Source of the DNA: Bryum argenteum
Lineage: Eukaryota; Streptophyta; Bryopsida; Bryales; Bryaceae
Direction: 5' to 3'
DNA: 64,000 bases
Assembly (NCBI GenBank): GCA_037043015.1
Contig: CM073330.1
Span: 2,815,263 to 2,879,262 of the forward strand
The first letter of the stretch is position 1. Each line of letters starts with the position of its first letter. The position numbers were made by a program, and so were the translations under genes. This document shows positions 2,477 through 44,215 of this stretch, one piece after another. The notes under the pieces were generated by a model. It ran no database searches. It had not been told where the DNA came from and was given only the letters and a program-made list of their open reading frames with translations.

Positions 2477-2846
2477 TTAACCCTTAAACGCCCTTGGGGT
2501 CCGAAACGGGCAGCCCAACATTGGATCATAGCATCTTTTGGAATTGGGCATCATGAATAGTGCACTTTTTGAACTTGGGCATCATGAATGGATCAATCAA
2601 TGATGAGCTTGCAACCTCCTACAAGGTTATGTACAACCCCAACCTACCTACCACAATCCTTTCAAAGCACAAAATCATTCATACAAATTGTGATTTGAAT
2701 TGTGAAATTTCACTTTTTGAATGCATGAGAAGAAGGTGACCAGTTTGACATCAAAATATAAGTGAAATGTTGAGTACAGTGAGAGCTATAGGGAAGATTA
2801 TGTTGGAATCATGCCCCTCGGGCTTGCTGGGGCGTTTAAGGGTTAA
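2477..2846. mobile_element. MITE with TTAA ends, subfamily 2, copy A (370 bp)
   Basis: The ends are TTAACCCTTAAACGCCC and GGGGCGTTTAAGGGTTAA, near-perfect inverted repeats. The interior carries the phrases AATAGTGCACTTTTTGAAC and TTTGACATCAAAATATAAG, which recur in the copies at 3299-3668, 33499-33869 (inverted) and 62800-63062 (end-truncated). There is no ORF of note. It lies about 120 bp from the element at 2117-2357. Confidence 0.85.
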
Positions 2847-3298
2847 ATAGACAAGGTAAACCAAACACTAAAGTGCATTCATTGACAAATAATGAAAACA
2901 AACCGGGTATTAACCAAAAGCACCGTGGTTGAGACTAAAGGTGTGAAAGCAAAAGAGGGAGGAGCTTTCTATGGTTTTCTTTACAAATTTGAAAAGTTTA
3001 TCTAAGTTTTGGGAGTAGGGGTTTTGAAGAAGTCTGTGAAAGTGATGAGGAATTATGAAACATTATTCTTCGGGTGTTGTTGGGATGGGTTAAATCCATC
3101 TCGTTCACTGAAACTTGGAAATGAGGTCAAGTACCGCCACATGCTATTCCCGGTCTGGACCAAGCTTCCCTCCATTCAAGGTGAGCCACAACCCTTCATC
3201 CGGAAGCTGGCCGCCCAAACTCCCTTTTCATCTCAACTCCCCTTTAGGACAGACCCATTTCACAAAGGAGCATCTTCACCCTGTTTCTTGGCAATTCC

Positions 3299-3668
3299 TT
3301 AACCCTTGAACGCCCATGGGGTCTAAAACGGGCAGCCCAAAATTGGATCACAACATCTTTTGGACCTGGGCATCATGAATAGTGCACTTTTTGAACTTGG
3401 GCACACTGAAAGAACCAATCAATGACGAGCTTGCAACCTCCTACAAGGTTATGTACAACCCCAACCTACCTACCACAATCCTTTCAAACCATAAAATCAT
3501 ACATACAAATTGTGATTTGAATTGTAAAATTTCACTTTTTGAATGCATCATAAGACGATGACCAGTTTGACATCAAAATATAAGTGAAAAGTTTATTACA
3601 GTGAGAGTTACAGAGAAGATTCTGTTGGAATCAAGCCCCTCGGGCTTGCTTGGGCGTTTAAGGGTTAA
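3299..3668. mobile_element. MITE with TTAA ends, subfamily 2, copy B (370 bp)
   Basis: This is a full copy in the same orientation as copy A, with ends TTAACCCTTGAACGCCC and GGGCGTTTAAGGGTTAA. The interior is collinear with copy A, with scattered substitutions. Confidence 0.85.
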
Positions 3669-4903
3669 ACCGAATGCAGGCATGTTTGCTATGACTAGAC
3701 CCTGCTCAACATAATTCAAATTCTACTTTACTAATCATCCTAAAAAAGAGACTTACCAGCTCAACATAATTCAAATCCACCTTTTAGGGTTGCTTCACAC
3801 GATGGTTGAAGGTCGAGAGGTTGTCGATTTCAGCCAGGAACACATAGTTTCAGCCTTTCGAGCCTTCACACTAGAATCCAAAGTGGTCACTCGTCATCCC
3901 TCTCCAAATGCTCTACATGGCAGCACTTTTTGACCAAGGCAACTAAACCCTCTCGACGTTTGTTTGGGTCCTGCATTTTTACACGACCCAAAGTATACTC
4001 GGAGAGGCCAACAAATGTTGTTCATACAAAATTCAAAGGCTCCGGTTATTACCATGTAAGGCTCACATGGAAATTGGCCCTCGCCTTCAACGAATATGTT
4101 TGTATCCCACACCTTCTTTATAATTTTGTTTAATCACTAGTGAAAAGGTGGTCGGAGTAAAACCACTAAGTTATTTTAATTATTCAAGAAGAGCATATTG
4201 TTGTTCTTCACTGTAAGTTCTAATAATACTTACTAGTCGAACCTACAAAATTTCTCAAAATCACTTAAACTAGTTTCATTCTATAGAAATTCACAAACCA
4301 CAAGGCTTATATTACAGTCCATTAAACCTGAAATCATTCCTAATTTTTGCATGCATGCGGATTCAATTTTATTGTCAAAATCAAAATGGGAGGGGGAATG
4401 TTTTGAATTTCGATTTGCATGGGGAATGTCTTTGAATGATAATGAGAATGGTTAGGAAATAGAGGGACAAAAGCAGAATATAAATCAAGGGGGCCGCGGC
4501 GCAATGGAAACTGCCGGTACAGGGCAAGACATTCACTCCCTTTGCTCAGGACAAGGCTCCTCCTCCCTTTTGGGGTTTAAAATACTATTATCTGATTATT
4601 ATGGGGCCCTTTTACCCCCCTAGGTCCCTACCTTTTATGGACCCCACATCCCTTGGTTTTTAAAAAGATTCCTATTTTCTCTTTGGTCCGGACCTTGTCA
4701 GCCTGCTGCTGTCAATTGGACCCCACTTTTCATTCTGCACGATTGGAACTTGATTTTTGCCTCTTCTACAATTTGCCTTTTTTCTTACTACAGTAGAGAC
4801 AGCTGTGAATGATTACAAGGGGGTTTATTTACCATGAATCACTAAAATGAGGAGATTTGTAAATAAGAATCTTTAGAGAGATTTTATCTTTGTAAAAAGA
4901 GGT
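3669..4903. other. Spacer, no gene recognised
   Basis: AT-rich spacer. The minus-strand frame at 3894-4112 has no recognisable domain and no intron or start context that supports it. A short GC-rich patch at 4490-4560 has no assigned role. Confidence 0.4.
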
Positions 4904-9415: not shown

Positions 9416-9420
9416 ACAAA

Positions 9421-9449
9421 ACGGGTATTTAACTAATTCTGGACAATTT
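9421..9449 (+). repeat. Left terminal inverted repeat of the 14-kb element
   Basis: Begins ACGGGTATTTAACTAATT and continues with a TGGACAA stretch. It pairs with 23479-23507 on the other strand with 3 mismatches in 29. A degenerate copy of the internal palindrome begins 17 bp further in (9466-9484). Confidence 0.85.
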
Positions 9450-11229
9450 GACAGTCCAGAAATCAATCGGCTTCCATCCGACACACCTCGAAGGAGCAAA
9501 ACAAGGCAAGGTAGAGAATGAGAATGATTGACATTATTAGCAAGTCGGAGAAAATATAGATGAATACACTCTTAGAGTTAGGAAACAAATCCGTTTCATT
9601 AAAAGAATAAGCGAATATTCCAAACGAAGCTCGTCCCACTAGCATGTGGTATCGGTAGCCTTGACCATCGCACTAACTTCGTATCAATAAATATTACAAC
9701 ACCCTATACAATATACAGCAACACTAGGTATCGAAGCAGACAGAAGTTTAACATAGGTGAACTACAGCGGTGTCGGCTCGCAGCCGATAAGTAGCAACGC
9801 GACTCCATCATCGACTTCCTCCTTTCTGGCACTCCATATTCAACAATCCAGGATATTAATCCCGGGCAAATCTCGATTTGAAGACCGACAGCGATAAGTC
9901 GACGAGTGCGAGTGCTGACCGGCTCATCGCAGGTTGTGCTGCACCGGCTGATCGCGTGAAGTGTCGGCTCGCAGCCGATAGGCATGCAGACTAAGTAAAA
10001 CCTAGGAACACTGCGATCCGAGAGAGAGAACACCGTCTTTGGGAATGAGCAACTTCATAAATGAAGTTGACCGGGTCTATTAGAAAGACTCATATATTGA
10101 CTAAATGATTCGAACCGGTATAAGGGGTAGATGAACGGAAGAATATCTCGTAGCTACATTGGGAATAGTAGTACTTGAAGACGTCAAATCACCTCGAAAA
10201 GGATAAGGCATGTAGCGGCGCAAAGATCCGCGCCAACCTTAATGCTAGTGGAGAAACATCAACGAGAGAGAAGGCGGTCGGGCTGCACACCTCACGGGAA
10301 CAACGCTTGCAATAGAGAGTCTTCAAGAGCTTGTAACACCACGGAAAATTCATAGGACGATCACAAAATTCTCTACCATAAACAAAGGATAGCCTGTCGA
10401 TGACGCTTGAAGGTAGAATGTAAGATAGGAGAGGCCTCAAGTCACGCATCGGCATCGTACACCGTAGACCAACATGGAAGCGCTCCAACAACATGGCAAA
10501 TAACCCGTTACACCTGGCCGCTTGATTATATTACGGTGAGCATTCCAACGATCCGTCGGAATATTAGGGCTGATGTAGCAAAGCAATCCAGATACGGATA
10601 GAATGATACATTTCTTGGAGGTAGAAGTACCAAAGAATGTCATAATCCAAACGGCAAATCACCCCAACAATACAAGCCTGAAAATAAGTCGAACGATGAT
10701 TAGAAACGCAAAAGACAAAGAATAGAATGATAAGGCGGGCGTATCGGCCGCGAAATGACAAGAAGACAAAACCAAAATAAACATAGAAGTGTCGGCTGGC
10801 AGCTGATATAAGAAGAAAACAAACAAGAGAGTCCATGAGTAAAGACGACAAGCAGACAATGACAAGAAGAAGCCATGGATCCTAAAGCAAAAAGGAAAAC
10901 AAAAGAAAATACCATACATAAGAACCGATACCAAGAAAGGGAATATGATAGAAAACTCTCCACGTTAAGATTAAGAGAGTCTTAAAAAATTAAACATCCT
11001 CGAAATATACAGTTAAGAAAAAGTCTCGAGTGGAACCCTAGAAAATTTACAGAACTAGAAGAAAATCTAAGTGATCTACAAATTCTAGCTCGCTAGATCA
11101 TCGAATTGGATGACTGAAAAATCTATACACCCATGCAAAGGACATGTATTCATATGGTAATCTATGTAGGGTAACAAGAGGTGTATCGGCCGGCAGCCGA
11201 CAACTGGAGCATCTTGAACTTGCTCCACC

Positions 11230-11946
11230 ATCTTTAATAACTCGAACGCCAAGGTCGAGAAGTAATCAATCCATGATCACTCCCTCCTACCAAAATCAAG
11301 CGTCTGTCTTTTGCTCGTGCATAGCTGTTTCCCGGGAGCATACGGCGCTTCCCTAACCTTGCGTGCTCAAAGATAAACTTAGGAACATTTTTCTCGAGAA
11401 TTATAGAGGTCGAATAACGAGAGGCCGCAATCCTCCGAAAGTAAGGTGGCCACTCACATTCTCGCTCCGAGGTCAAAAATGCAGTGTGAGGTGGAACGCA
11501 TTGTAAGGATTGTTCAAAACGTTCTTGTAGGGGAGTCGTCGATGAGAAGCATGTTCTCGGGATTAGCACCACGAGCCCCGAGGTCGGGACTCATTTCCGG
11601 GAGATGATCAATGGACTTAATAAAGAAGGGCCGGTCGGGATTATCGGGCTCCGGTAGCAACTCCGGAAGCAATATCCCCGATCAAACTCCAAGATGTTCC
11701 TAGGGAGCCTTGGAAAAACAGGCGAATAAATTCGATCCTCGGAGTAAGGTTCTTCTTAGTGACCGAGGACCCGAGAAAACAAATTTGCCGGTCTGCATCG
11801 ACGCAAAATCGAAGCATTGATCAAGGCGGTCTTGCCCTTGCCTCTCCTCCTTCCGCCACCGGACGATCCCCACCGAAATGATCCTACGAGGAACGTAGTG
11901 AATGAGAGTGCCATTCACGTCGAATGAATAAAATATTTTCGACGGG
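11230..11946 (-). pseudogene. FCP1/NIF-like HAD phosphatase region, frameshifted
   Basis: In the upstream part of the minus-strand reading a frame contains SFDVNGTLIHYVPRR, which resembles HAD motif I (DxxGTL). About 300 nt further on a second frame reads FFIKSIDHLPEMSPDLG and then ENMLLIDDSPTRTF, the motif III pattern (LLIDDSP) typical of FCP1/NIF-type HAD phosphatases. A shifted frame continues NNPYNAFHLTLHF, as in that family. At least two frame changes or unrecognised introns are needed to join these parts, so a working product is unlikely. Family members dephosphorylate proteins such as the RNA polymerase II tail; whether this one ever did is unknown. It may be the 3' part of the minus-strand gene to its right or a separate captured host gene. 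Confidence 0.55.
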
Positions 11947-12532
11947 CTACCTGCCCTCCAGATACGAGAGGAGTCGATATGGAGGTGCCCTGCCGCGATC
12001 CATGAGACGCGGAGTCCACGAACTCCTCATTCTCGATTCACCGACTGCAAGAGATTAGGGCATTTGTACAATAAGCAAAAGAGCGTGAAGAATTAAACAA
12101 CAAAGTGAGACACGAGCGTCTGAGAGGTGGCAGTGGATACAAATAACATCAATCACCATGACAGAAGGGAGAATAATAGTGCAAAGAAAGGACATAATGA
12201 CTTGTCGGCTGGCAGCCGATAAGCCGAAAAACACTGTTGAGAGAAATCGACATCGGAGACAAGGAATACAGGCGGAAACGTGAAACGATAATAGGAGTCG
12301 GTTTGGCGGCCGTCTGATGTCTGAGGAAGGAACTGGCCGAGCACGTTGCAACCAGGAGATTCTAATACCAAATCCATTCTAGAACCTAAAATGCTTATGC
12401 AATGGTGAGAAGAGACTATATACAAGAAACGCCGTCGTCTAGGACAAACCTTCATGTAATTGTTGTTGCTGCGGGGAAGCATGATCCGCCGCAGGTGGAG
12501 ACAAAGCCTCGTTCGGGGCGTCGATGGCGAAC

Positions 12533-15500
12533 TCATAGTCGTCTCACGAGGGCCGCCTCGTTTGGGGCGCTGATGTCATCTGCGTCGTCCTCCCGGAGAG
12601 CCTCCTCATTTGTTGCGCTGATGTCGTTTGCGTCGTCCTCCCGGGAGGGCCGCGAATCAACAAAGAACTTCCCTTCGTGTATAGTACGCCCGCAATGCCG
12701 AGTGAGCCCTCTGAACTTCCCTACATGGAGGAGCGGGAGATGTCGGCCCCGGCCGATAAGGGCGAGCGGATCGAAGGAGGACTCGAGGGGCACGACGGCA
12801 GAGGAACTGCTCCACGACGATAACCTCTTCTGCGGGGCGTTTTGCAAATCAACATGCATCGTGGTCGCAGCACATGCGAGCGGACTCTTTTGTAGTATCA
12901 GGAGGCGGAGCTGACACGGTGACAATGTGTCGGCCGGCAGCCGATACAGGAGAAGAGATAAGTGTGGCAGTCGATTCAGGTGGAGCCGTCGGCGTGGTTG
13001 CAGGTGTGAGTGACAAAGGAGTAAGGTCAATCTCATCCAGCACTTCCTGAATCCTAACACCAGAGGCGGGACGTCGTCCAGGGTTGGCAGGCTCGCGAGA
13101 CGAGACTGAGGGACCAGCGTCGGTCTCCATATCCTCGGAAGACGACGGTGGAAGCTCGACCCTATCCAAATTTATTCCCTTCGCACGTTGGACTGCCAAC
13201 TTGACATGGTCCTGACTTCTGACGAACTCGATCACGGACCTCCTATTTCTCTGCAAGACCATGAACAAGAGTAAGAGACAGAAGGGAACCAAACAAGTAC
13301 TGGTAAACGAATAAGGTGAAATAGACATATATTAGAAGGTGTCGGTGGCGGCCGATACAAAAGCAAAGGAGAGGATGCCTTACCAATCAAGCTCGGTGAC
13401 GTTTCCGCCACCCCGCACGTTGATAACGGTGACCTTCTTCGCGGTGAGAGTTGGCTTCAAGAACTTCTCGAGCGTGTCATGGTCGACACCGCGAGAACCC
13501 CTGTTCCAATCGACAAAGACTTTCGGAGAGATGCCTGGAACCAATCGACCGGCTTGGCGATTCCAAAGATACTTCCCGAAAGTAGTCCAACGATCATCAT
13601 CCCCGCGTACCTTTGGGTGCGTCATGTTGAGCGTAACAAGCGGGGACGATTTCGTCACCGTCTTCTTGAACCCTCCCGAAGACACGGCTTGTAATAGACC
13701 GTCGGACATACCACTCCGTATCTTCGGTTGTCCAGACAAAGACAAAGAAGATCCCGTTGCTTCGCGCTCGTTATGAATAACATCGGGATTGAATCACGAG
13801 AGGGCCGAGTCGGAGTGACGTCGTCACCGTCCCATTGTGAGGTCCTCATCCGTGAGTGGGACCTTCGACCGTTCAGCGAGCACGAAGCTCCGACCTCACC
13901 GGTTGGAACCGAGACTCCGCCATAATCGTACCCGAAGTAGACGATTAGGAGTGGGTCCTTTGCAATGCCGGCATGGCCAATAACAGTGCGTCGATCTCGT
14001 GCAAGACGCGTCGCAAATCGTGTCCGCGAATTTGCACTCGAAATGCGCCTTCTCGTAATCGACTTCCTCCGTCCTAACCTCGACCGAGAGAATACGTTTG
14101 CGAATGGTGCTGAAAATGGGCGGCGCCACACCGTTCTTCGACTTGTCAGTCGTCGGATTCATTGCGCTGGCGCGTCCATTAAGCCATTCATTTCCATCCG
14201 TGAATTTCTTCAGGTCTGTCCAGATGTTGCGAACGACACTCGGGGTGAAATGATGTTCCTTCGCCAACTTGTCCCAGTCTGAATCTAGGTATGGCGACCA
14301 GTTCGCATCCTTGCAGGGAAGCGGATGCCTATTGAGCTGATACATAAGCTCGTTCATAATTACCCGGTCGAGCTTCTTGTCGCGGCACCAATCCGGCAGT
14401 GTGAGTCTGTCCTTCGTCCTGCTGTTGGCCTTGATGCAGACACGATTTGCGATCACCTCCGCTGCAAGCTCTTCAAAGTCGCAGTCACGAAGACCGAGTG
14501 TGGGGACAAGGTCAGTCTTCGTAATGTTCGAGATTGGCGTCCGCTTGATCAGTCCCGGCTCCTTGCCGTCGTCGCCAATGAGTTCACCTGCTTCCCAGGC
14601 ATTGAAGACCTCAATCCAAGTATTCCAGGCCTTGTCACCCACGAATACTAAGGGGAGCTTTGTGGACACCTTCTCGTTCACGAAGTGCGCCATGACTTGC
14701 GCCTTCGCAGCCTGATGAACAACCATAAAGCATTAGTTGTATGAAGGCAAGAAGAAGAGCTGTCGGCTGGCAGCCGATAGCTCTAGATTAAAGAAATGTG
14801 TCGGCTGCCGGCCGATAGATAAAGCAGAGGGTAACCATACCTCGAAGGCCGGCGACGGCTTCCCGCCTCCCTTGTGTGGCTCGGGGCTCCCGAGACGCTT
14901 CCATGCCGCCCTCCCGAGTTCCGCGCACGATCGGAAGTTCTCTTTGGCGACCTTCTCTGCGATATTGAGATTGAGGGCGTTCGACACCCTCACAAGATCG
15001 ATGGGGTCCCTTGAGAACACAGGGATGATCTCGAATTCGAGAAGCTCTTTCTTGGCCTCCGATCCTCGGTACTTTCGTCCGCCAACTCGCGGCAGTCACA
15101 CCGTATCATGACCACCGATGATATACCGATTAACGGAAGGGTGTTGCCACCAAGGGACTTTCGGGCGGTGTCGGGTGCATGTCGTTTAGCTTCCACATAT
15201 CCAACTCCCCGGCATGGAATCCATCACGCCCATCATCCCGTGATCGGTTTCAAGTGGTTCCCGTTTAAGCGGGATACCATGGATCTCAGGCTTCTTCCGG
15301 ATCGCCCCGTAGCCCTTGTAGATGGCCTTCACCTGCGAAGAACATAACAAATGAACAATCATGAATCAGAGATGATCAGAGGATGTATCGGCTGCCAGCC
15401 GATACACAGAGCAAAACCTCATAAGAGCAGGTGAGAAAATCAAAATACCTGTCCCAGATGATCTTTCGCGATGCGTCTGTACTTGACCTCGTCCGGAGCG

Positions 15501-15928
15501 ATGTGTAGCTTCTCGCTAGGAATGACCCCCGGCAGCCTCCGCTTCTTGTAGGGGAAGAGGTGACCAAGACCAGTCTCCAATGCCTTGTAAATTGCGTCGA
15601 TCTCGACGTCCTTCATCTTGGATGTCATTTGGTTGCCCTTAGTCAGGGCCTCGTCTAAGGTATACTCGATGGCATCCTTAGTCGATTTTGCCCATCTCTT
15701 GGGCTTGCTGGGATCTTGTGACCCCTGGACGTCTTCATCGCCGTCATCGCCAAGATCGACCATCTCTGCTGCAGGTCGCTTCTTCTTTGAAGGAGTGGGC
15801 TTCCTCTTCGACGACGACGGAGCCTCAGCCGCTGCAGCATTGATGGCGATGTTAGTAGCCAACCTTGCGTAATCGATAGCGGACCACGCGTCCATGAACT
15901 CCTCGATGGTAGCAGTAGCGCAGCCCAT
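12533..15928 (-). pseudogene. Multi-exon gene of unknown function, left arm of the 14-kb element
   Basis: Reading the minus strand, a coding exon starts at or upstream of 15928 (MGCATATIEEFMDAWSAID), carries a lysine-rich, nuclear-localisation-like stretch, and ends at 15450 before GT. The next exon starts at 15331 after CAG, but its frame breaks within about 150 nt. A third exon runs to 14842, an intron spans 14714-14841, and a long exon from 14713 reads to about 13,990 before frameshifting. Further coding blocks lie at 13745-13382 and about 13253-12960. The long exon has no domain I recognise; it contains an AWNTWIEVFNAWEAGE stretch and a tryptophan- and lysine-rich middle. The last block, 12840-12533, has an acidic repeated motif. 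Introns contain the palindrome. It may be a DNA-binding or accessory protein of the element; that is inference from location only. Confidence 0.6.
12543..12650 (-). repeat. Short in-frame tandem duplication (about 48 bp, 2 units plus part)
   Basis: On the minus strand the frame repeats an acidic unit, REDDANDISATNEEAL followed by REDDADDISAPNEAAL. On the plus strand this shows as repeated GCGCTGATGTC and CGTCGTCCTCCCGG phrases. In-frame expansion suggests the stretch was once coding. Confidence 0.7.
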
Positions 15929-16670
15929 TGAAGGTCATGCCCGCTTATTCGCCGCTCACCACAAACCGCCTCGGTGCATTGTCTCCACGGCATTGATACG
16001 GCGATGTAGTCGGTCGGGGCGGAGGCATCTCTCGGGCCGGTAGGCTTATGAGAATGTCGACGTGCTCCACATTCTCCGAATTTCGAGCACATCACCGTAC
16101 CCAGGGATCATATTACCCTCAGAGAGGTGCGAGCAAGCAATCTCGATTCGCCGGGTCGGGGGAGGACTCTCCAAAGATAGTCCCCATCACGGATGACCGG
16201 ATTAACGGCCCATACCGCACGCGGGACGATGTCTCCATGCTTGACATCCGTGTGTGCAAGTTCCACACCAAGCAGCTCTAGCTAGGGTGGTGGTTTTTCG
16301 CAGAATGAACACATGAGGGTATATTAGTAAACGCCAAGAACGTGTACATTATCAGATATCAAGAACGAATATCTTATCGGCTGCCAGCCGATAACAACCA
16401 TGGTGTCGGCTGCCAGCCGATAGCGACAATGCACAAATATTCAGCGCGACACTCGCAATAGTTACGATGATAGCTAGTCTAATGACCTACAGCAAATAGC
16501 ATGCTATCGGCTGCCAGCCGACAGAATAGAAGCTATCGTCACGTCGGCCGATACACAAGGCAGTGTAAGGCGCTAAGGCAGAGGAGCTACTAACGACCCG
16601 CGAGTACACTAAGCATTACAAGAGAACATGCTACAGCAAATGGGCTATCGGTGCCAAATTAATACACACA
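15929..16670. other. Upstream part of the left-arm gene with a palindrome cluster
   Basis: Minus-strand reading from 16281 gives open but interrupted frames (for example ELLGVELAHTDVKHGDIVPR) that may be a worn first exon. Three complete palindromes lie within 150 bp at 16375, 16404 and 16504, with a half-site near 16541. This is the likely divergent control region between the two arms, but no TATA box or start is defined. Confidence 0.4.
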
Positions 16671-17820
16671 AAGACAAGCGTTCTAAGTTAATGCATCACC
16701 GAAATATCGGTGACAAAAACACACACAAAAAGAGAACTCGACGAAAAAGATGCAAATGAAACGACGCCAATCGAAACGGCGCATCTACAAAACGTCGCGG
16801 AAGAGCTAAATCGGCTTACCTCTTCGACGACGCCATCGGAGATGTATCGGTGGCGTGTGCTCGATGTCGGGCGCCGGTGCGTAAGGAGTGCTCCGCTCTC
16901 CCGCAGCCGCTTACCGTGCGTGTGTGGTGTGTCGGCCTTTGCCTCGCCTCCCGCATGAAAGTCATCATTGGACCTTAAAAATATCGGCCGTTGCTAAAAA
17001 CCCTAAACCCTAAAACTCGAATACTATCGGTACCGCCAAAGACAAAAACGGCTAAGGCAAGAAAGCATGCAAGCAGAGAGAGAGAGGACAGAAGACAAAA
17101 AGAAAGCATGAAAGTAGAGAGGAGGGAAGACAAAAAGAAAGGAGAGATGAGAGAGCAAGTAGCAAATGAGAGGAGAGAAGCAAGTGCAAATGAGAGAGGA
17201 GAGAAAGTGTGGAGAGAGCACAAGTGAGAGGAGAGCGCAAAAGTGAGAGAGGAGAGAAATTACAAATGAGAGCAAATGAGGGAGGGTGAACGGTTTACCC
17301 CTCCGCAATTTTCGCAATGATGGCTATCACCGCCCGCCGATTTGCGCCTTGCCCGCTTTCAATCGGCTTGCCCGCTCTCGCATCCGCTTGCCCGCCCGCC
17401 AAAAATTTACTCGCTCGCGCCGCCAAAACGTCAATTTAAATTTTTTCATCCGTTTCATCATGCTTTTCATCCCGCCTATCAATTAGCCCTCCAAAAATTC
17501 AAAATCATTTGAAATTTGAGTTTGAAATCTTCTTGATTTGAGCGCCACCCACGCTCTGTCATTTCGATGGCTATCCATTCCCAATCAAGTTTCTCACATT
17601 TTATTTCATTTCTCGTGTTTCGACGCCTGAGCGATTTGCTTTCTTTGTTTTTGTAGTTTTCCCGGCCGAGAAATAGTCAAGAATTGCGTCATTGTGTTCC
17701 CGTGTTCGCGCTTCTTTTCTATATAGAGAGCGGTAGATAGCGACCTTTTATTACTTCAATTTGCACGATTTAATAGCTAGAGGCTCAATACCCTGGTATT
17801 AGACGCCACCGACATAGTGA
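16671..17820. other. Central non-coding region of the 14-kb element
   Basis: It contains two telomere-type CCCTAAA units (16996-17015), then a strongly purine-rich strand (17061-17285) made of GAGAGA, GGAGAGAA and AAATGAGAG phrases, then pyrimidine- and CpG-rich DNA. Frames on the minus strand here are low-complexity serine/leucine and not credible genes. Confidence 0.55.
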
Positions 17821-17943
17821 ATGTCGCCACCGACCGATCGATTCCTTAGGACTCGGTCGGATCTCCTTATATCGGCCGCCACCGATATAGAACTATCACG
17901 CGTGTCCGTCATTGTCCTGTCTCCCGGGAGCTTGGATCAAGGT

Positions 17944-18222
17944 GTCGGCCGGCCGATACCTCGGTGGTTGTTTCTACTGCACTTTGTCTTATTATTTCCT
18001 ACGTCTCCTCAACCTTTTAGATTCGCAATTGTGTGGCCGGCGGGAAGATACCTCGCCGGTGGTTGTGTCTCTGCGCAATGTCTCATTATTTCCTACGCCT
18101 CCTCAACCTTTTAGATTCGCAATTGTGTCGGGCGGCGGCCGATACCTCCGGTGGTTGTGTCTCATCATCGCAATGTTTTCATTACTTCCTACGTCTCCTC
18201 AACCTATTAGATTCGCAATTGT
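17944..18222 (+). repeat. Three tandem units of about 93 bp, each opening with a palindrome variant
   Basis: Each unit begins with a TCGGCCGG-type palindrome remnant, continues with a GGTGGTTGT phrase, then TTCCTACG and CTCCTCAACC, and ends TTAGATTCGCAATTGTG. A fourth palindrome starts at 18222. Units begin near 17944, 18036 and 18129. The palindromes have decayed differently in each unit. Confidence 0.8.
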
Positions 18223-18466
18223 GTCGGCCGGCGGGCACCGATAGATCAATGAAGAGATCATGCTCCATCATCTTTGATACCGAACCGATTGATGACTTTT
18301 CTCAAGAACGGGCGGTTCCGCGAGATGGCGTATAGAAAAGGGCGCAGTTGTCGCTCTGTCATTCGCAAAATTTTATTATCTTTGTCTCGCTTCCATCAAC
18401 CGAATTATCTCGCGAAAGCCATTTCTTTTAGACGTCCATGTTATTGATGTCGCTCCAAATATTGAG

Positions 18467-21400
18467 ATGATCATTCCGTTTCCCACTCCTAGCGTTAAGT
18501 TTCTTAGTCAGTGTCCTGGTAACAACATTACATGGGACGTGAATGACGTGAGACCCTTCGTTAATAACCTCGATGAATCATCCGAGCCTATCGGCTGCCA
18601 GCCGACACCGGGCCCATTAGATGAGAAGCCCATAAATCAGTTCCTCACTCTCTCTGTTAACATGGAGGTTGCTCTATTGCATGTTGGCGGGACCGGTCAT
18701 CACTGTGTCGAAGTGGGCGTCATCGTTGAGTGCTCGCCTAAGGGCACCTGGGAGGGTTTCCGCGTCCCGCATAGCTTCTTTGCGGTTTGTCAAGCTCACT
18801 CTCACAGAAGGACTTTGTTGGTCTTGTAGCTTCATCGTGAGAATCCTTCTCTCACTCTGCTTGGCGAGTGCCTTGGGTACGAAATCCTTTGGAGCGGTTA
18901 CAAACTTCGTCCCCTCGACGCTACGCCGCCGAATGGCAACTCTATCGGCCGGCACCGATACACCCCATGCCGAGGAGTGTCAAGGTTGAACCAACCAAAT
19001 GATGACGGTGTCAAGGACTCACCTCTCTGATCGGGCGGTAGTTCGTAACCCGCATCATTCAACCGGTCTCTCTCATTTTGAGGGCAGCGACGACTGTGGG
19101 TCCGGGACGAATCCGCCAACCCGCGTCGATGTCCTCTCCTCTCAAGGGAATGAATCTGCTAATGATCTTCATGCTACGCCGTTTGACAACGGAATTTTCT
19201 CGACCCTCTTCGATAGTTACGCGCCGATAGCGCCACAACTTTCGCCCCTCTGTCGACACTGAACATTTGCGACCGGAACCTCAAGCGGTCCTGGATCGGC
19301 CCGACTAGAGGAACAAGTGCTGCGACTTACTGAACGAGGATCTTACCTTTTTTGGGCAGGCGATCATTCAAGTCTGTCTTCCGGATGAAGCCTGCGATGA
19401 GGATCTTCTTGGCGATACAGATGTCGGAGTAATGTTCATATCAGAGCACGATACCCTACAGCTCACGACAATGAGATGGCCTCTTTCACGGACTCGACTT
19501 GAAGGCGGTCAACTCCTGTCAGACATTGTCATGCTCTGCTCTGAGGCCGCTCAGAATTCCACCTTCGATCATCCGGGACTTCAGGGCGTGCCTCGGAATC
19601 CCTGAGTCCGTTCGTCGTAGACTCTTGTCAAAGGAGCGAGGCCCTGGGTCTAGGCTTAAGTCGAAGACCTCGGATGATGAAATTCGCAAGGTTAGTTCAC
19701 AAACATCTTTGCAAGAGTAGGTCTTTGTCGGACGTTTCCGTGGGAGTCTACTCGAATCCTTCGTCGTAAGTACTATGCTTGCTCTTTTGAAATTAGAAGA
19801 GAGACAGCGTATGCCGTTCAAAGTCAACTTCATGTCCATGAACCGGGGGCGGGAAATTCATCACGCTTGAGAATGTTGAGGTCTCGAGAATGCTTGGTAT
19901 ATCATTCACGGTGTCTCCGGATCGCCTTACCACGTCTACAAGGTCAGCAAAGAATGGGTGGATCGGTGAGCGGATCGCATGGCAATTCTGAGTCGTTCGT
20001 CCACGCCCGCATACGATTCGAGGCGAGCAACCTGCGCAGAAGATTATTGACGAGAATGCGGACCAGATGCCTAACGAGTTCAGGCTTGTTGGGAATAAGC
20101 GAGTTGACAACCTGAAGGTTGTTCCATCTGCGCTCAACTGGGACACCATGCGCGAGCAAGTGAATCAAGTAAGTCCCAATCATTCTTATTTCCTCTTCGT
20201 CCTCGATGTCGGCTGCCGGCCGATACACTAGGTTGCTATGTTTTGGTTGTTTCCAATTAGACCTTTCAGCTTTACCTTCTTCTGTCGATTCCTTCGTGCC
20301 TTATCTAGTCAATGCTCTGCTACTTGTCGGCTGCCAGCCGAAACTCCGTTAGCGATTAGTTCCTGCTTATGTCAGTGCACTCATGTCGGCTGCCGGCCGA
20401 TAGGAGGCGTCGACCTGGATGTTAACGACCTACCTTATCTCCTCCTTCCAGGTGAATGTCAAATGCCACCATAAGCCGGTCTCTCAGTCCACCATCAGTC
20501 AGCTTCGGAAGAACCACTTCAAGAATGTCGAGGTTAAAGTCATGGGGGAGCAGCTTCTCGAAGTGTCACGAGTGTGACTTCCTTGTGGAGTGCATATCCA
20601 AGTACCCAAGGGGTGTGATGAATGGCAGGGCATTAGTCGATGACCGGAATCGCCATCTCAATTATCAGCGTGTCTGCCGCCATATATATGGTGGCTGGAG
20701 TTCCCAGTCCTGCGAGAACCCCTCTGAGTTTCTATGTATAATCCATGACAAAATGGATACCACGAAGACGGCCATTCCTGCACGCGAGGGATTACAAAAG
20801 CCACCGCCGGCCTTGGGACAGACCGGGTTTATTCTGCGGCATGTTGACACACGGCCACGGTGATGGTGCGTACGCACACTACTCCACTGCGCTCTGGCCG
20901 GGTGATTCCAACTTCACCATCTCTTCTTTGTGTCGTGTACTGCGAGCGCTTGAGAAGCCACCGGTACGTGAATCCCGGGAGCTCTTTCCCACACCTCCAC
21001 AGAACAGCTTCTTCCAAGCTTTGCTACATGGAAAGTCTAGGTGTTTCGCATCGATCCCACCCGCCACCGGGACTCAATTCGGTCCTTCACAACCTGGACG
21101 TCCGCTCGTTCCGCTTCCGCGTAAGCTATTCCTGCAACTTGATAATTCCGCGAATGACAATAAGAACAGATTTGTGATGGCCTTCTGCTCTTTGCTGACC
21201 GCTCGGCGCATTTTTAAGGAGGTCACTGTTGGGTTCCTCATTGTTGGCCACACTCACGAGGATATTGATGCCCATTTCGATTACCTTTCCAAGCTCATCA
21301 AGCGGAAGAACACGCGTCGTTCTAGGCGAACTCATGAAGGCCTTTATGGACTCGCGAGAAGACGATCGCCTTCATTCCCGAATTGATCAAGAGGTTGCGG

Positions 21401-22400
21401 ATTTCAAATCCTACGTCAAGGACTTTCATCACGACGGTGTCAACAAAATTGTTGGACTTGGTGATATGCATCTTTTCAAGTTCTGGGTCGAAGAGGACGG
21501 TGACGATCGCGGCTGGCCTGTCATGAGGTATAAGCGGAAATCCACTGATTCTTCATGGCTCCCACCCGTCCCCCCACAAAGATGTGGACTTCGACGAGCA
21601 AGGAAGACCTAGAATTCCATCTGGCGACCCACGTCCTGTTCCATTTAAGCCGTTATGGGGCGTCACGGAGGTGAACCCCAACAAGTTGAACTCTGTGAAG
21701 GAGCAAGCTCGTGCCTCGGAGTGCAATGACAAACAGGGTTTCATCAAGCACGGTATATCTAAGTTCATTGAGTTACGAAGTCCGGTATGGCGCGTAATGA
21801 GACGTTGCATGAGAGAGATGGTGGACTTTGTTGGTTCTTGGGAGCGAATCAACCGAGAGATCAATTCACCATTACCGTCTACCCCGACGTTCTTGTAGAA
21901 GGATTTTGGCCTATTTCAGACTGGACTCGTGATCATTCTCGTTCCTCCCAAGATTCTGGATCTAGCTCCTCTTTCTCACAGGACATTACGCCTGAGGATG
22001 ATGCAGATGCTTATCCTTACTGTGGTCCTGCTAAAGACCGACCGAGGCTCAACTTTAATCCATTCCGTGATGTTCTTCTTGGCGACTTCGTCTTATGTCG
22101 CCCAAATGACGACCATTTCCTTCCTTCCTGGCTGGGCGGGGCGTGTCCTTGAGTGTGTTGATCTAACGCCTGGTCCTACCTATGGCAATTTCAAGATCGA
22201 ATGGTGGACCCCTATGCGAGCTAAGAAGGAAGGAAAATCGATCATCGCTAGGGAGTGCTGGACTCGCCGCTGGCATAAGGAGCCTTGTCTTCCTCAGATT
22301 GTGAATGTCAACATTGTTTTGTTCTCTCATAGGATGTCGTCACATGCAAGGAAAGGTCCACCACTACACATATCATTCCCGAAAGCAGGCTGCGCAATGT
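18467..22400 (+). pseudogene. DUF7869-like gene, frameshifted; candidate transposase
   Basis: The recognised part starts in an exon ending near 20168 (VPSALNWDTMREQVNQ, then GTAAGT). An intron to 20451 holds three palindromes. The next exon carries the family signature: KCHECDFLVECISKYP, SEFLCIIHDKMDTTKTAIP, GMLTHGHGDGAYAHYS, LDNSANDNKNRF and FLIVGHTHEDIDAHF (near 21150-21290). A C-terminal part with WLGG and IEWWTPMRAKK (22120-22230) resembles the chromatin- or DNA-reading tails often found in such repeated proteins. Frame changes are needed near 20560, around 20830 (between two overlapping frames), near 21350, near 21570 and near 22130. The conserved acidic residues in the TKT, LDN and HEDID blocks are compatible with a metal-binding nuclease fold, but that is inference. 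The upstream part (18467-20100) has open stretches with no recognised domain. Confidence 0.7.
20169..20451 (+). other. Intron of the DUF7869-like gene carrying three palindromes
   Basis: The donor AAGTAAGTC follows NQ codons and the acceptor CTCCTTCCAG precedes GTGAATGTC, which continues the protein. Palindromes lie at 20207, 20325 and 20384, so over a fifth of the intron is palindrome. Confidence 0.65.
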
Positions 22401-23228
22401 CTAACCTTGAGGCCACTGAGTCGTTCTCTAAGATGTTCATCAAACATTTGTATCGGCTTCCGGCCGACACGCTTCATGCGACCCTCCTCGCATCCTCCCA
22501 CTCTATGACGGACCTGCTCTGCACTTGTCGGCTGCCGCCGATACGATCTCATATGCTTCCCACTAGCAACTCCGACCTCCTATCGGCCGCCGACGACACC
22601 ACGCTCTACCCGCCGGTTCTTATCCGACTCACCTCACTACTCGCGATTAGTGTCTATAATCCGTGCATACCGTTGTGTTTTCGCCGTCGCCATACTCATC
22701 ATTATCAATATGCTACACCATTCCTTTACTCTTGTTTTCGGTCTTCCCTATCCATGACATTGATTGGAGTATATTCATCGTTTCACGATTGTAGCGTTTA
22801 TTGGTTGCTTTGTTGTACTTTCTCCTTCTCTATAGTTTATCGTTTTTCTACCGGCGGCCGATATGTGACTTAGCTACCTATGGCTTTCCGATACACTATA
22901 TCCTACTCTCTTTTAATGTAGCGATCATTGTATTGTACACTTTTAATGTACTCCGCTTTTCTCGGCTGGCGGCCGATATTGGACTTTTCTGTTCATGGCA
23001 TTGTATCCATGTATCCCTCTGAATCATATTGATCTGTGTATGAATGAGTGTGCAACCTTTTGGATTCCTTTTCTAAGCTGAGTTCTGATATTGTTACTAC
23101 TACTTCGTCATATTCCTTGGGCTTCTATCGGCGGCCGTCCGATCTGTAATTTCAGCTAATGTGGGTTGGGGACGGGAACTGTAGTCTACGGTCTAAGGTT
23201 CGGGGTTTAGGGTCTAGGGTTCAGGGTC

Positions 23229-23291
23229 TTTAGGGTTTAGGGTTTAGGGTTTAGGGTTTAGGGTTTAGGGTTTAGGGTTTGGGGTTTAGGG
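23229..23291 (+). repeat. Interstitial plant-type telomeric repeats (TTTAGGG, about 8 to 9 units)
   Basis: A nearly perfect array of TTTAGGG with one TTTGGGG unit, preceded from about 23195 by degenerate units (GGTCTAGGGTTCAGGG). It lies inside the 14-kb element, about 220 bp from its right end and close to the last palindrome. Confidence 0.9.
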
Positions 23292-23478
23292 TTCAAGGTT
23301 TAGTGGTTTTAGTTGTATTGGCCTTCGGCCGATATAATTTAGATAGTTTTTTGTTTTACATGCACTTTTCAATATATAATGCTTGATTTTCAATATATCT
23401 TGCTTGGTTTTCTATTATTTATTAATCTGCTATACATTTTGATACTTATGTTTTTAGTGAAAATATCCATAAGTTCGG

Positions 23479-23507
23479 AATTTGTCCATAATTAGTTAAA
23501 TATCCGT
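23479..23507 (-). repeat. Right terminal inverted repeat of the 14-kb element
   Basis: Read on the minus strand it begins ACGGATATTTAACTAATT and continues with TGGACAA, mirroring the left end. About 140 bp of AT-rich DNA separates it from the last palindrome (23318-23337). Confidence 0.85.
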
Positions 23508-23513
23508 TACAAA

Positions 23514-33385: not shown

Positions 33386-33498
33386 TCTATGCAGCAGCAA
33401 CAGCGTCGTCTTCAATTTTTCTTTCCCGGGCAGCTGCCCTGCCCGAGTCATTTTGATATAGGACCTATTTCAAGGCGATCTTGAATGGTGTGTTTGTT

Positions 33499-33869
33499 TT
33501 AACCCTTAAAACGCCCAAGGTGACCCGAGGGGTCACCTTCCAACAGAATCTTCTCTGTAGCTCTCACTGTACTCAAATTTTCACTTATATTTTGATGTCA
33601 AACTGGTCACCTTCCTGTGATGCATTCAAAAAGTGAAATTTTACAATTCAAATCACAATTTGTATGAGTGATTTTGTGCTTTGAAAGGATTGTGGTAGCG
33701 AGGTTGGGGTTGTACATAACCTTGTAGGAGGTTGCAAGCTCATCATTGATTGGTCCATTCATGATGCCCTTGTTCAAAAAGTGCACTATTCATGATGCCC
33801 AAGTCCAAAAGATGTTGTGATCCAATTTTGGGCTGCCCGTTTTGTACCCCATGGGCGTTTAAGGGTTAA
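33499..33869. mobile_element. MITE with TTAA ends, subfamily 2, copy C (371 bp, inverted)
   Basis: Ends TTAACCCTTAAAACGCCC and GGGCGTTTAAGGGTTAA. The interior is the reverse complement of copies A and B. It lies about 120 bp upstream of the WDR12 telo-box and so within its likely promoter region. Confidence 0.85.
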
Positions 33870-35428
33870 GAGGTTATGTCCCAAGATTGTTATATCAATG
33901 GTGGGATAATTAATCATATTGGGTGAACCTTTTGTTAGTTTTTACCTAAGCATGTTCAACCCTAAAGTTTTGAATAATGTGAATTTGATTGTGTGACTTT
34001 TGAGCAACCTACTCAAAAGCGCTTAAATTAATCAATATTTTCCAAAAAAAATATCTTGTCCGTGAATAATGAAGAAAAATATCATGGGGCAAAAATTTCA
34101 TGAGAATATAATTTATATGTGAGTTGATATCATCCTTTACGATTTTAGACTGTGAATTGCACACTTCCATCAAGGGTGAGGGCCAATACTCTAAGCCATG
34201 TGAGAAATAGGCGAGATGAAGAGGAAGTCGTCCATTCTTGGATTTCAATAATAATACTAGTTCGCCCTAGCAGCGCTGCCACACTCATACAAATAATTTT
34301 CAGTATTTTTGGGGCCATAAATACTTCAAAATTCAATATCTTAAGATTAATTTGACCCAATTCTTGATCCGACTTTTACCTGCACCTTTACGTAAAAATA
34401 TGCTCCCAACGACACATCATGATCATTCAACCGGCGGTGCCGCCTGAGACCATGATGTCACTAACAAAACAAACTATTTGCCTTAGATAATAGATTTCTT
34501 GAGTTAAATTATAATTTAGATCATATTTGTTTTTTTGATTTTAGGAAAATGTTTCAAAGGTGGAGATAAGCTTATTCTAATTAGTGGTAAGCTTGTGCAC
34601 CAAAGATGCTATTTTCGTAACTTTTGAAATTAATTATGATTTTTTTTGTGATTTATTTCTTGTGTACTCCTTTTGTCTTGTATTATGTGATTTGTAAGGT
34701 TCTCTCAATCTATCCTTAGAGTTAAATCGAAGAGAACCTATGAATCAAAAAAATTGGGTCAGAAGAAAGAATCCTTCAAGAAAAAAGTCTACACATAACA
34801 CCATTGGTAAGTGACTATTATTATACCTAACTACCATAATCCTTTAAATAGATAGATAGAAACTCCGGTCCTTTCTAAGGGGCCCGCGTGAATGAAGTAT
34901 CCGTTCGTAATGCTAATAATCCGATGGCCACTGGACAAGGGGAAATTCCATAATCCTTTACTACAAAGATGATTGATTCTCAGTCGACTCTGCACTGAAA
35001 TGAGACACCTGTAGGTTCATTACACAAGTTTTTCGCAAGTGGACTGAAAATAAAAAATTCTTAAAGTTTAACCCCGAAAATTTCTTGAGTTCATGGGAGC
35101 TCTAAAACCCAAAAGTGCGATTTTCTACCACCTTGTTGAAAGTAAGGTATGGTCAATTAATCTACTGTTTTTTTTGTACTTTCAACAGTAGGATACTAAA
35201 CCTACCTACTATAAGTAGCCCTACATGAAGTTATTATTGGTGGACCTTCACCATGTGTAAGAATATGGTGTTCAAAGTTGGTACAAGACTTTTAGGGCAT
35301 TGTTTACCCCTATACAACAAGATACATTTTACAAAGGAGTAATAGCCCATAACTCAACCCTTTGCACTCAAATCTATACCTTATCTTCAGTACATCTTTG
35401 ATTTTGTCAAGGTTTCTACCACTTAAAC
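33870..35428. other. Spacer with repeat fragments
   Basis: No gene. A worn Stowaway-like hairpin may lie at about 34665-34745 (TACTCC start, then GGTTCTCTCAA and its complement GAGAACC). A dispersed repeat occurs at 34849-34949. Confidence 0.4.
34849..34949. repeat. Dispersed repeat starting with GATA units, copy 1
   Basis: TAGATAGATAGA, then CGGTCCTTTCTAAGGGGCC, then GTGAATGAAGT and TTCGTAATGCTAAT. The same order is seen at 40261-40371 and 51951-52022, with a GGCCACYGGACAAGGGGAAA tail in copies 1 and 2. Confidence 0.8.
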
Positions 35429-43279: not shown

Positions 43280-44215
43280 ATGGCTTCGTTGGTAGAGGCA
43301 GACACGGTGGTGTTGAGGAGCAGGAAGGGGAAGAATTTCGTGGCTGAAGAAGAGGAGCAGCTATGCCGGAGCTTTCTTCACGTTTCGCAAGATCCAACAG
43401 CAAGAAACGGCCAGCGATTGACGGCATTCTGGGAACGTGTACGAGAGCACTATAATGCCAATAGACCCGTGGGTGGAGGAGAGCGACCTGCAAGGTCGCT
43501 GGAAACGAAGTGGGGAGTCATAAAGCACGATGTCGCGAAGTTCATAGGCAACTACAAAGTTGCAGTCGCGCTTTGTCAATCGGGGACGTCATCACACGAC
43601 GTGTTGCAGAAAGCGTTAGAGCTTTACAAGTCCAAGCACCCGAAGAACCAGAGCTTCGTGTTCATTCACTGCTGGTTCCTTCTCAAGGACATCCCCCATT
43701 GGGCCGAGCCACTTGACGAGGGGAAGAGGACGACGCCACTGAAGAGACTCGTTGACCAAGACTCTTCTTGTCAACGAGAAATTGTACCAGATGCACCTAC
43801 GTTGAATATCGGCGAATCCAGTTTCAAGCGGCCCCAAGGATCGAAAACCTCCAAGGAGGAGCAGAGAGCGATGAAACTCAAGGAAAGTGCACTCTGGGCT
43901 CAAGCCAAGGCTACTGCGGACATGGCAGCGGCTACTTACAAGAAAGCCAAAATCATGGAAGAGCAGAGCATCATGAACTTGTTCACGTTACCAGACGAAA
44001 GCTTGGTGTGCGAAGAAGCGAGAGAATACGTGAAGCTACGTAGGATCGAGGAGCTTCAGAAGCTGAAAGACCGACTTAATTCTCAGGCCTCAGCAGCTCC
44101 CATGACTTCCAGCCTAATACCTACCTCACCGATCTCGCAGGAATTGCAGGCTCAACCTTCCGCGACGCAGGTATCCAGTATCGCTGACACAAGCTTCACC
44201 AGGATTATCATATGA
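43280..44215 (+). CDS. Trihelix/Myb-SANT-like protein with NAM-associated-type C-terminus
   Basis: A single exon of 311 aa starting MASLVEADTVVLRSRKGKNF. Residues about 20-130 (FVAEEEEQLCRSFLHVSQDP, then NRPVGGGERPARSLETKWG and the HCWFLLKDIPHW stretch) form the Myb/SANT-like DNA-binding module found in plant proteins related to the accessory protein of PIF/Harbinger transposons. The C-terminal half (SKEEQRAMKLKESALWAQAK and a helical, lysine- and glutamate-rich region) matches the NAM-associated C-terminal domain pattern. It would act in the nucleus on DNA. No transposase partner or TIRs lie next to it, so it is either domesticated or a relic of such an element. It is intact and has no frameshift. 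Confidence 0.85.
   Translation: MASLVEADTVVLRSRKGKNFVAEEEEQLCRSFLHVSQDPTARNGQRLTAFWERVREHYNANRPVGGGERPARSLETKWGVIKHDVAKFIGNYKVAVALCQSGTSSHDVLQKALELYKSKHPKNQSFVFIHCWFLLKDIPHWAEPLDEGKRTTPLKRLVDQDSSCQREIVPDAPTLNIGESSFKRPQGSKTSKEEQRAMKLKESALWAQAKATADMAAATYKKAKIMEEQSIMNLFTLPDESLVCEEAREYVKLRRIEELQKLKDRLNSQASAAPMTSSLIPTSPISQELQAQPSATQVSSIADTSFTRIII

Follow-up and report, generated by a model that had tools for sequence, protein, structure and literature searches.

A decayed 14-kb DNA transposon with a DUF7869 gene, accessory genes and dispersed palindromes in the moss Bryum argenteum

The question raised by this locus of the moss Bryum argenteum is whether a 14-kb block of DNA, bounded by inverted repeats and occupied by two gene regions and by numerous sites of a short palindrome, is a transposable element, to which group such an element would belong, and what its palindromes and its additional genes may be for. 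The stretch that has been analysed, which we refer to as “the window”, is 64,000 nucleotides long (contig CM073330.1 of assembly GCA_037043015.1; C10:2815263-2879262 in the coordinates used here), and the genome that has been searched comprises 258.8 Mb in 25 contigs.

We hold the following explanation, taken as a whole, to be highly probable: the block would be a large autonomous DNA transposon of the cut-and-paste type, present here as a decayed copy, whose transposase, carrying a DUF7869 DDE/D domain, would recognise the ends AACGGRTATTTAACTAATT and excise the element; the excised element would be joined to target DNA cleaved 4 bp apart on its two strands, from which the 4-bp duplication would arise; the leftward arm would encode one or more accessory proteins, namely a conserved protein of unknown fold, together with two phosphatase-like domains that are degenerate; and a protein encoded by the element would bind the palindromes, so that the element stays expressed or escapes silencing, in the way that VANC proteins act on VANDAL transposons.

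Ends, target duplications and copies of the element

The copy in the window is 14,089 bp long, its bounds being the positions at which the homology of many copies starts and stops, and in multiple copies the terminal inverted repeats (TIRs) are located at these same bounds. The two TIRs pair at 27 of their 30 positions, and a 27-bp pattern of the end occurs at only two places in the window, i.e. the two ends of the element, with a chance expectation of 0.00. An earlier note on this DNA had recognised the inverted-repeat ends, which are real, but had placed them at 29 bp with 26 matches; similarly, the target duplication that it had read as ACAAA exists, but is one base shorter (ACAA), because the left TIR already begins with the fifth A.

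The ends recur across the genome: allowing up to three mismatches, 209 forward and 201 reverse matches (410 in all) have been found, against none for a reversed control. Among the best 40 of 116 candidates for the left end are the window itself, 30 matches at 93-96% and nine at 88-89% identity, and 39 of the 40 start within the first five query bases; the search with the right end has given 50 matches from the best 40 of 262 candidates. Thirteen full copies have been compared, comprising 11 close copies (the window copy and ten others, picked because both of their ends are listed about 14 kb apart), which are 93.0-97.5% identical in pairs, and two divergent ones. The ends AACGGGTATTTAACTAATT / AATTAGTTAAATATCCGTT are present in all 13, each of which is flanked by a perfect 4-bp target duplication, with no two duplications being alike (ACAA, CCTT, ATGT, TCAA, ATTA, CATT, ATAC, TAGT, ATTT, TAAT, ATAA, TTAC and TCAT). 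Near the right end, a telomere-type array is also seen in all 13 copies, the divergent subfamily included.

For the search of empty sites, the 100-bp flanks of four copies were joined pairwise, and the best 40 of 2,477 candidates were scored. All 40 belong to one flank pair, that of copy C4:18772975-18787078, which therefore has at least 40 empty sites, i.e. matches of 200 bp at 99-100% identity that span the flank junction; the insertion is in a host repeat of which many paralogues are empty, and the other three pairs have no empty site among the matches listed. A survey of facing ends, conducted with the 84 zero-mismatch ends out of the 410, has given 30 pairs with a median length of 14.2 kb: 15 pairs are 12-15 kb long, 14 are longer than 15 kb and are presumed to hold nested insertions, and one measures 8.8 kb from end to end. 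The checks that the earlier note had proposed, i.e. the same ends at other loci, an empty site with a single target sequence and shortened copies, have thus all turned out in its favour, the second for one copy and the third for the 8.8-kb pair.

The block is a mobile element, with ends that are defined, a stagger of 4 bp and an empty site that is clear for at least one copy; its mode of movement is most likely cut-and-paste rather than copy-out.

A DUF7869 gene and a conserved accessory arm

The exons of both arms have been mapped by tblastn with the exons of a divergent copy (L039/L040). The matches agree with the two outward-facing gene regions of the earlier note, whose overall description, that of a complete element bounded by TIRs and a target duplication and having two divergent gene arms, is fully borne out. 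In the window copy, the genes are broken by frame breaks and stops.

The product of the rightward gene matches DUF7869 (PF25273), a Pfam family without an assigned function and the sole Pfam family above the cut-off in the transposase pieces; the length of the complete protein, summed from the exons, is estimated at about 1,000-1,100 amino acids. A structure model of the domain, with a predicted local distance difference test (pLDDT) score of 90, is arranged in the RNase-H/DDE manner, and its structural matches include Mos1 and integrases, with Z-scores in the middle range. On this model, the domain is predicted to have a DDE/D (RNase-H-like) nuclease fold, and DUF7869 would be the domain that catalyses transposition. 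The third acidic position is mostly E253 (glutamate in 81 of 89), and the adjacent D254 and D256 are almost invariant.

Relatives of DUF7869 with an organism name come from Ceratodon purpureus, Physcomitrium patens, Riccia sorocarpa and the sponge Ephydatia muelleri, while the domain was found in none of 14 control genomes. With one exact peptide pattern, an insensitive probe, eight matches in prokaryote genome contigs correspond to two loci, both on short contigs of metagenome-assembled genomes (MAGs) labelled Bacteroidetes, and the one of them that was inspected looks eukaryotic; likewise with one exact pattern, none of 12 matches in viral contigs (IMG/VR) is a DUF7869 relative. In the open-licence literature, the term DUF7869 was not found, and the matches listed for the peptide strings GHTHED, HTHEDID and THEDIDQ look unrelated by title. 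Within the Bryum genome, DUF7869 is strongly expanded, with 1,806 first-look candidates (150 of them scored) and several uninterrupted frames of about 1,000-1,100 amino acids; the matches listed genome-wide outscore the domain of the window element itself and seem to be members of other groups.

The leftward arm contains two domains that resemble NIF phosphatases: in L039, they match PF03031 with 28.8 and 26.2 bits, the cut-off being 21.8 bits. The catalytic motif of NIF/FCP phosphatases is DxDx(T/V); at its place, domain a has DINGT (L039), NVNGT (L031) or DVNGT (L038), and domain b has CVSGL in both L039 and L038. Because the catalytic aspartate motif is altered, the two domains are probably not active phosphatases. 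The exon with the motif WYIIGGQHT, hereafter the GGQHT exon, was considered as a ParB relative and is not classified as one here: the likeness is one by eye only, and profile searches of Pfam (with 30 aligned members), NCBIfam and PDB have given no relevant match, two chance Pfam rows having E-values of 0.07 and 0.24; its structure model is poor (pLDDT 60), with no ParB structure among the matches listed. More than 40 weak relatives of this exon (32-38% identity) occur elsewhere in the genome, many within long open frames (e.g. C5:10217931-10218245 and C6:690830-691108), and could be parts of other elements.

Selection on the coding blocks has been evaluated between the two subfamilies by the Nei-Gojobori method, in single-frame blocks of chosen copies (17 comparisons, with the 47-amino-acid exon left out). 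The synonymous divergence (dS) could be estimated in nine of the 17 comparisons, ranging from 1.75 to 3.0, and the ratios of nonsynonymous to synonymous divergence (dN/dS), which are rough, stand at 0.09 in the GGQHT exon and 0.19-0.20 in the exon next to it, at 0.15 in the outermost leftward exon, at 0.18 in NIF-like domain a and 0.12-0.14 in domain b, and at 0.18-0.21 in the transposase N-terminus. In the remaining eight comparisons dS is saturated; for the transposase, the middle and C-terminal exons give a dN of 0.11-0.15. All coding blocks compared are under purifying selection, and the accessory genes have clearly been kept together with the transposase for a long time.

Relationship to described transposon superfamilies

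The nearest known superfamily, compared by its description and not by transposase sequence, is Sola. The available excerpts of a review (PMC10741241) describe Sola elements as having duplications of 4 bp, TIRs between 11 and 1124 bp long and a DDD transposase, as measuring mostly 2-9 kb, though some exceed 15 kb, and as occurring in the moss Physcomitrella patens as well as in bacteria; the element of the window shares the 4-bp duplication (13 of 13 copies), a predicted transposase of DDE/D type, a size and a TIR length within the reported ranges, and a moss host. It differs in its accessory genes and dispersed palindromes: features of such kind are not mentioned in the excerpts that describe Sola, Ginger and IS481EU (PMC10741241, PMC10045372).

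If the element were a member of Sola, DUF7869 would be the Sola transposase and the accessory genes and palindromes alone would be unusual; this alternative, which competes with a new superfamily and not with the proposed mechanism, we regard as evenly poised. The agreement in duplication length, size and fold speaks for it, as does the occurrence of DUF7869 proteins in Physcomitrium, Ceratodon, Riccia and a sponge, next to the report of Sola in Physcomitrella. It is opposed by the third acidic residue, which is mostly E and not D, though its two aspartate neighbours hardly vary, and by the finding of only two MAG contigs with one insensitive pattern in prokaryote genomes, where the excerpts of the review have bacterial Sola (PMC10741241).

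Duplications of 4 bp are also typical of Ginger1 and of some IS481EU families, according to excerpts of a second source (PMC10045372), and the element is like both groups in this respect. It is unlike Ginger in that no Gypsy-type integrase core has been found in the transposase pieces, where Pfam gives DUF7869 only; its termini, AACGG...CCGTT, are unlike the TGT...ACA termini that the same source states for the IS481EU families of Histomonas; and it is unlike piggyBac, as the TTAA target occurs in none of the 13 duplications. The earlier claim that the element belongs to no recognised superfamily is only partly right: its transposase belongs to a named Pfam family, without an explained function, and several of its traits agree with Sola, while Ginger, IS481EU and piggyBac fail on the feature compared. 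We think it possible, though unlikely, that the element represents a separate superfamily of eukaryotes, which would have a DUF7869 transposase of DDE type and have expanded in bryophytes, and whose second arm and dozens of palindromes would form a self-recognition or anti-silencing system independent of VANC.

The dispersed palindrome and its possible role

The palindrome, of 19 bp in its usual form, follows the motif T[AG]TCGGC-N(3-8)-GCCGA[TC]A. As the earlier note had described, the palindromes lie inside the ends: all 17 full sites of the window, and 53 of its 57 half sites, are within the element. Restricting the spacer to exactly 5 bp leaves 15 sites (chance expectation 0.00), and the counts of 18, 17 and 15 differ by the spacer length allowed. 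Genome-wide, the form TATCGGCYGSCRGCCGATA occurs 538 times, against none for the control. Of the first 50 listed of these 538, all located in C1:0.9-5.33 Mb in five clusters, with 31 sites within one copy, 48 are at most 12 kb from a GGQHT-exon copy of at least 60% identity, the random mean being 1.3; this region holds six such exon copies, one of them without a listed palindrome nearby. The divergent copy L039/L040 carries 46 palindromes, with runs at 28-29-bp spacing in its divergent centre, and 41 of the 46 are outside the conserved coding blocks (43.5% of the element; binomial P 1.8e-6, with the sites treated as independent).

Among the 11 close copies, any given palindrome is kept in 1 to 10 of the 11, so that inserted copies lose palindromes like any other sequence. 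Since near-identical palindromes are nevertheless present in both subfamilies, between which silent sites have reached or almost reached saturation, we infer that the palindromes are maintained by selection on active lineages.

VANDALs are Mutator-like elements. In Arabidopsis, VANC proteins are associated with short element-specific motifs, which are tandemly repeated within introns and in noncoding DNA upstream, as described in excerpts of PMC5735166; the element of the window is similar in having a short motif of its own in noncoding DNA and in having accessory genes, and different in that its motif is a 19-bp palindrome, so that the likeness is one of motif placement. By this analogy, the likeliest reading is that a protein of the leftward arm would bind the palindromes and regulate or protect the element. 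That the palindromes are binding sites at all is, in our estimation, an even matter, and that they would serve as binding sites in anti-silencing is a tentative and somewhat doubtful proposal.

The base composition and the mutations of the copies bear on this last proposal. The CpG-rich block of the earlier note is confirmed, with a CpG observed/expected ratio of 1.09 in the element and 0.66 in its flanks; four other elements, represented by eight half-copies, have ratios of 0.83-1.01. In the 11 close copies (L017-L036 and the window), outside the palindromes, the rates of singleton transitions are 0.0100 at CG, 0.0176 at CHG, 0.0058 at CHH and 0.0045 at A/T; singleton mutations are about three times commoner at CHG than at CHH, for both transitions and transversions, and 1.7 times at CG for transitions. 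In 14 copies of a 370-bp repeat, used as a control, CpG sites are too few to be useful. The CHG excess makes a methylation-like decay at CHG likely, as if silenced copies were methylated, which speaks against complete protection of the element; an argument for anti-silencing from the high CpG ratio was dropped, being undercut by this CHG-biased spectrum.

Two other roles of the palindromes have been weighed. CACTA elements carry subterminal repeats, and the palindromes could similarly be recognition sites of the transposase itself; they are specific to the element and present in both subfamilies, as this would require, but they are spread across the whole element, introns and divergent centre included, instead of being concentrated at its ends, from which the outermost sites of the window are about 350 and 970 bp away, and we find this role improbable. 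More improbable still is that the palindromes act as RNA hairpins, affecting splicing or feeding the production of small RNAs. Many palindromes are intronic, and a translated palindrome, mostly near the C-terminal end, is found in two sets of homologous exon-derived proteins (13 of 35 proteins in one set, 5 of 13 in the other; totals of 16 and 7, against shuffle means of 0.06 and 0.01, for a pattern picked after the data had been seen), but in only 4 of 103 DUF7869 proteins (shuffle mean 0.15); against a role in RNA, palindromes also form arrays in the intergenic centre, and at their inner pair T often faces G on one strand and C faces A on the other strand, which fits variation of a DNA site equally well. 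In three proteins of Ceratodon and Physcomitrium (P0006, P0008 and P0011), the coding palindrome has another core (VGCPPT, VGGPPT, VGGPPI or IGGPPT), as if the core had diverged by lineage, judging from the proteins alone.

An integrated virus or virus-like element, which the large size and the several genes might suggest, is hardly credible, given the TIRs, the 4-bp duplication and the empty site, the lack of a viral domain in 19 open reading frame pieces scanned with Pfam, and the lack of an IMG/VR relative with the single peptide pattern.

Table 1. Features of the element, in window positions.
Feature	Position	Strand	Basis or remark
Left target-site duplication, ACAA	9416..9419	.	perfect 4-bp duplication
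Whole element	9420..23508	.	copy-homology boundaries
Left TIR	9420..9449	+	30 nt, 90% complementary to right end; end-pattern match
17 palindromes, 18-19 bp	9771..22543	.	none elsewhere in window; starts at 9771, 9962, 11184, 12203, 12741, 12928, 14761, 14799, 15386, 16375, 16404, 16505, 18589, 20207, 20384, 22451, 22526
18th palindrome, 2-bp spacer	17943		start position
NIF-like degenerate phosphatase domain b	10112..10616	-	tblastn of L039 exon, 4 pieces in 3 frames; frames broken in window copy; PF03031 in L039
NIF-like degenerate phosphatase domain a, remnant	11491..11847	-	tblastn of L039 exon, 2 pieces in 2 frames; PF03031 in L039
Short conserved exon	13134..13274	-	tblastn 55% over 47 aa
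Conserved exon of the leftward arm	13284..14714	-	tblastn 45% over 507 aa; 13 homologous proteins elsewhere
Conserved exon with WYIIGGQHT motif	14802..15332	-	tblastn 63% over 178 aa; 35 homologues; two stops in window copy
Outermost recognised leftward exon	15446..16278	-	tblastn 40% over 251 aa, plus one piece in a different frame
Divergent intergenic centre	16279..18298	.	between recognised exons of the two arms; palindromes and half sites
Transposase N-terminal exon	18299..18916	+	tblastn 55% over 206 aa
Transposase middle exon	19291..20195	+	tblastn in two frames in window copy
Transposase C-terminal exon with DUF7869, the putative catalytic domain	20452..22417	+	PF25273 E 3.9e-34; five tblastn pieces, three frames; frames broken in window copy
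Telomere-type (TTTAGGG)n array	23203..23309	+	few hundred bp inside right end
Right TIR	23479..23508	-	30 nt, 90% complementary to left end; end-pattern match
Right target-site duplication, ACAA	23509..23512	.	perfect 4-bp duplication

Outside the element, the 370-bp repeat is located at window positions 2477-2847, 3299-3669 and 33498-33870, and has 2,511 candidate copies genome-wide; the best 40 of these, apart from the query, are 96-98% identical, with a CpG observed/expected ratio of 0.24-0.41, and the repeat is probably a young non-autonomous element. The sole open frame of at least 250 amino acids outside the element, of 311 amino acids, is located at 43280-44215.

The presence of DUF7869 in demonstrably mobile elements with clean ends points to a likely role as a transposase for this family, which would account for the abundance of DUF7869 in the genome. 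The palindromes, associated with the element and common to two subfamilies whose silent sites are saturated, offer a testable case of a plant transposon that marks itself; if it is true that a protein of the element binds them and relieves silencing, this would be a second, apparently unrelated case of sequence-specific anti-silencing.

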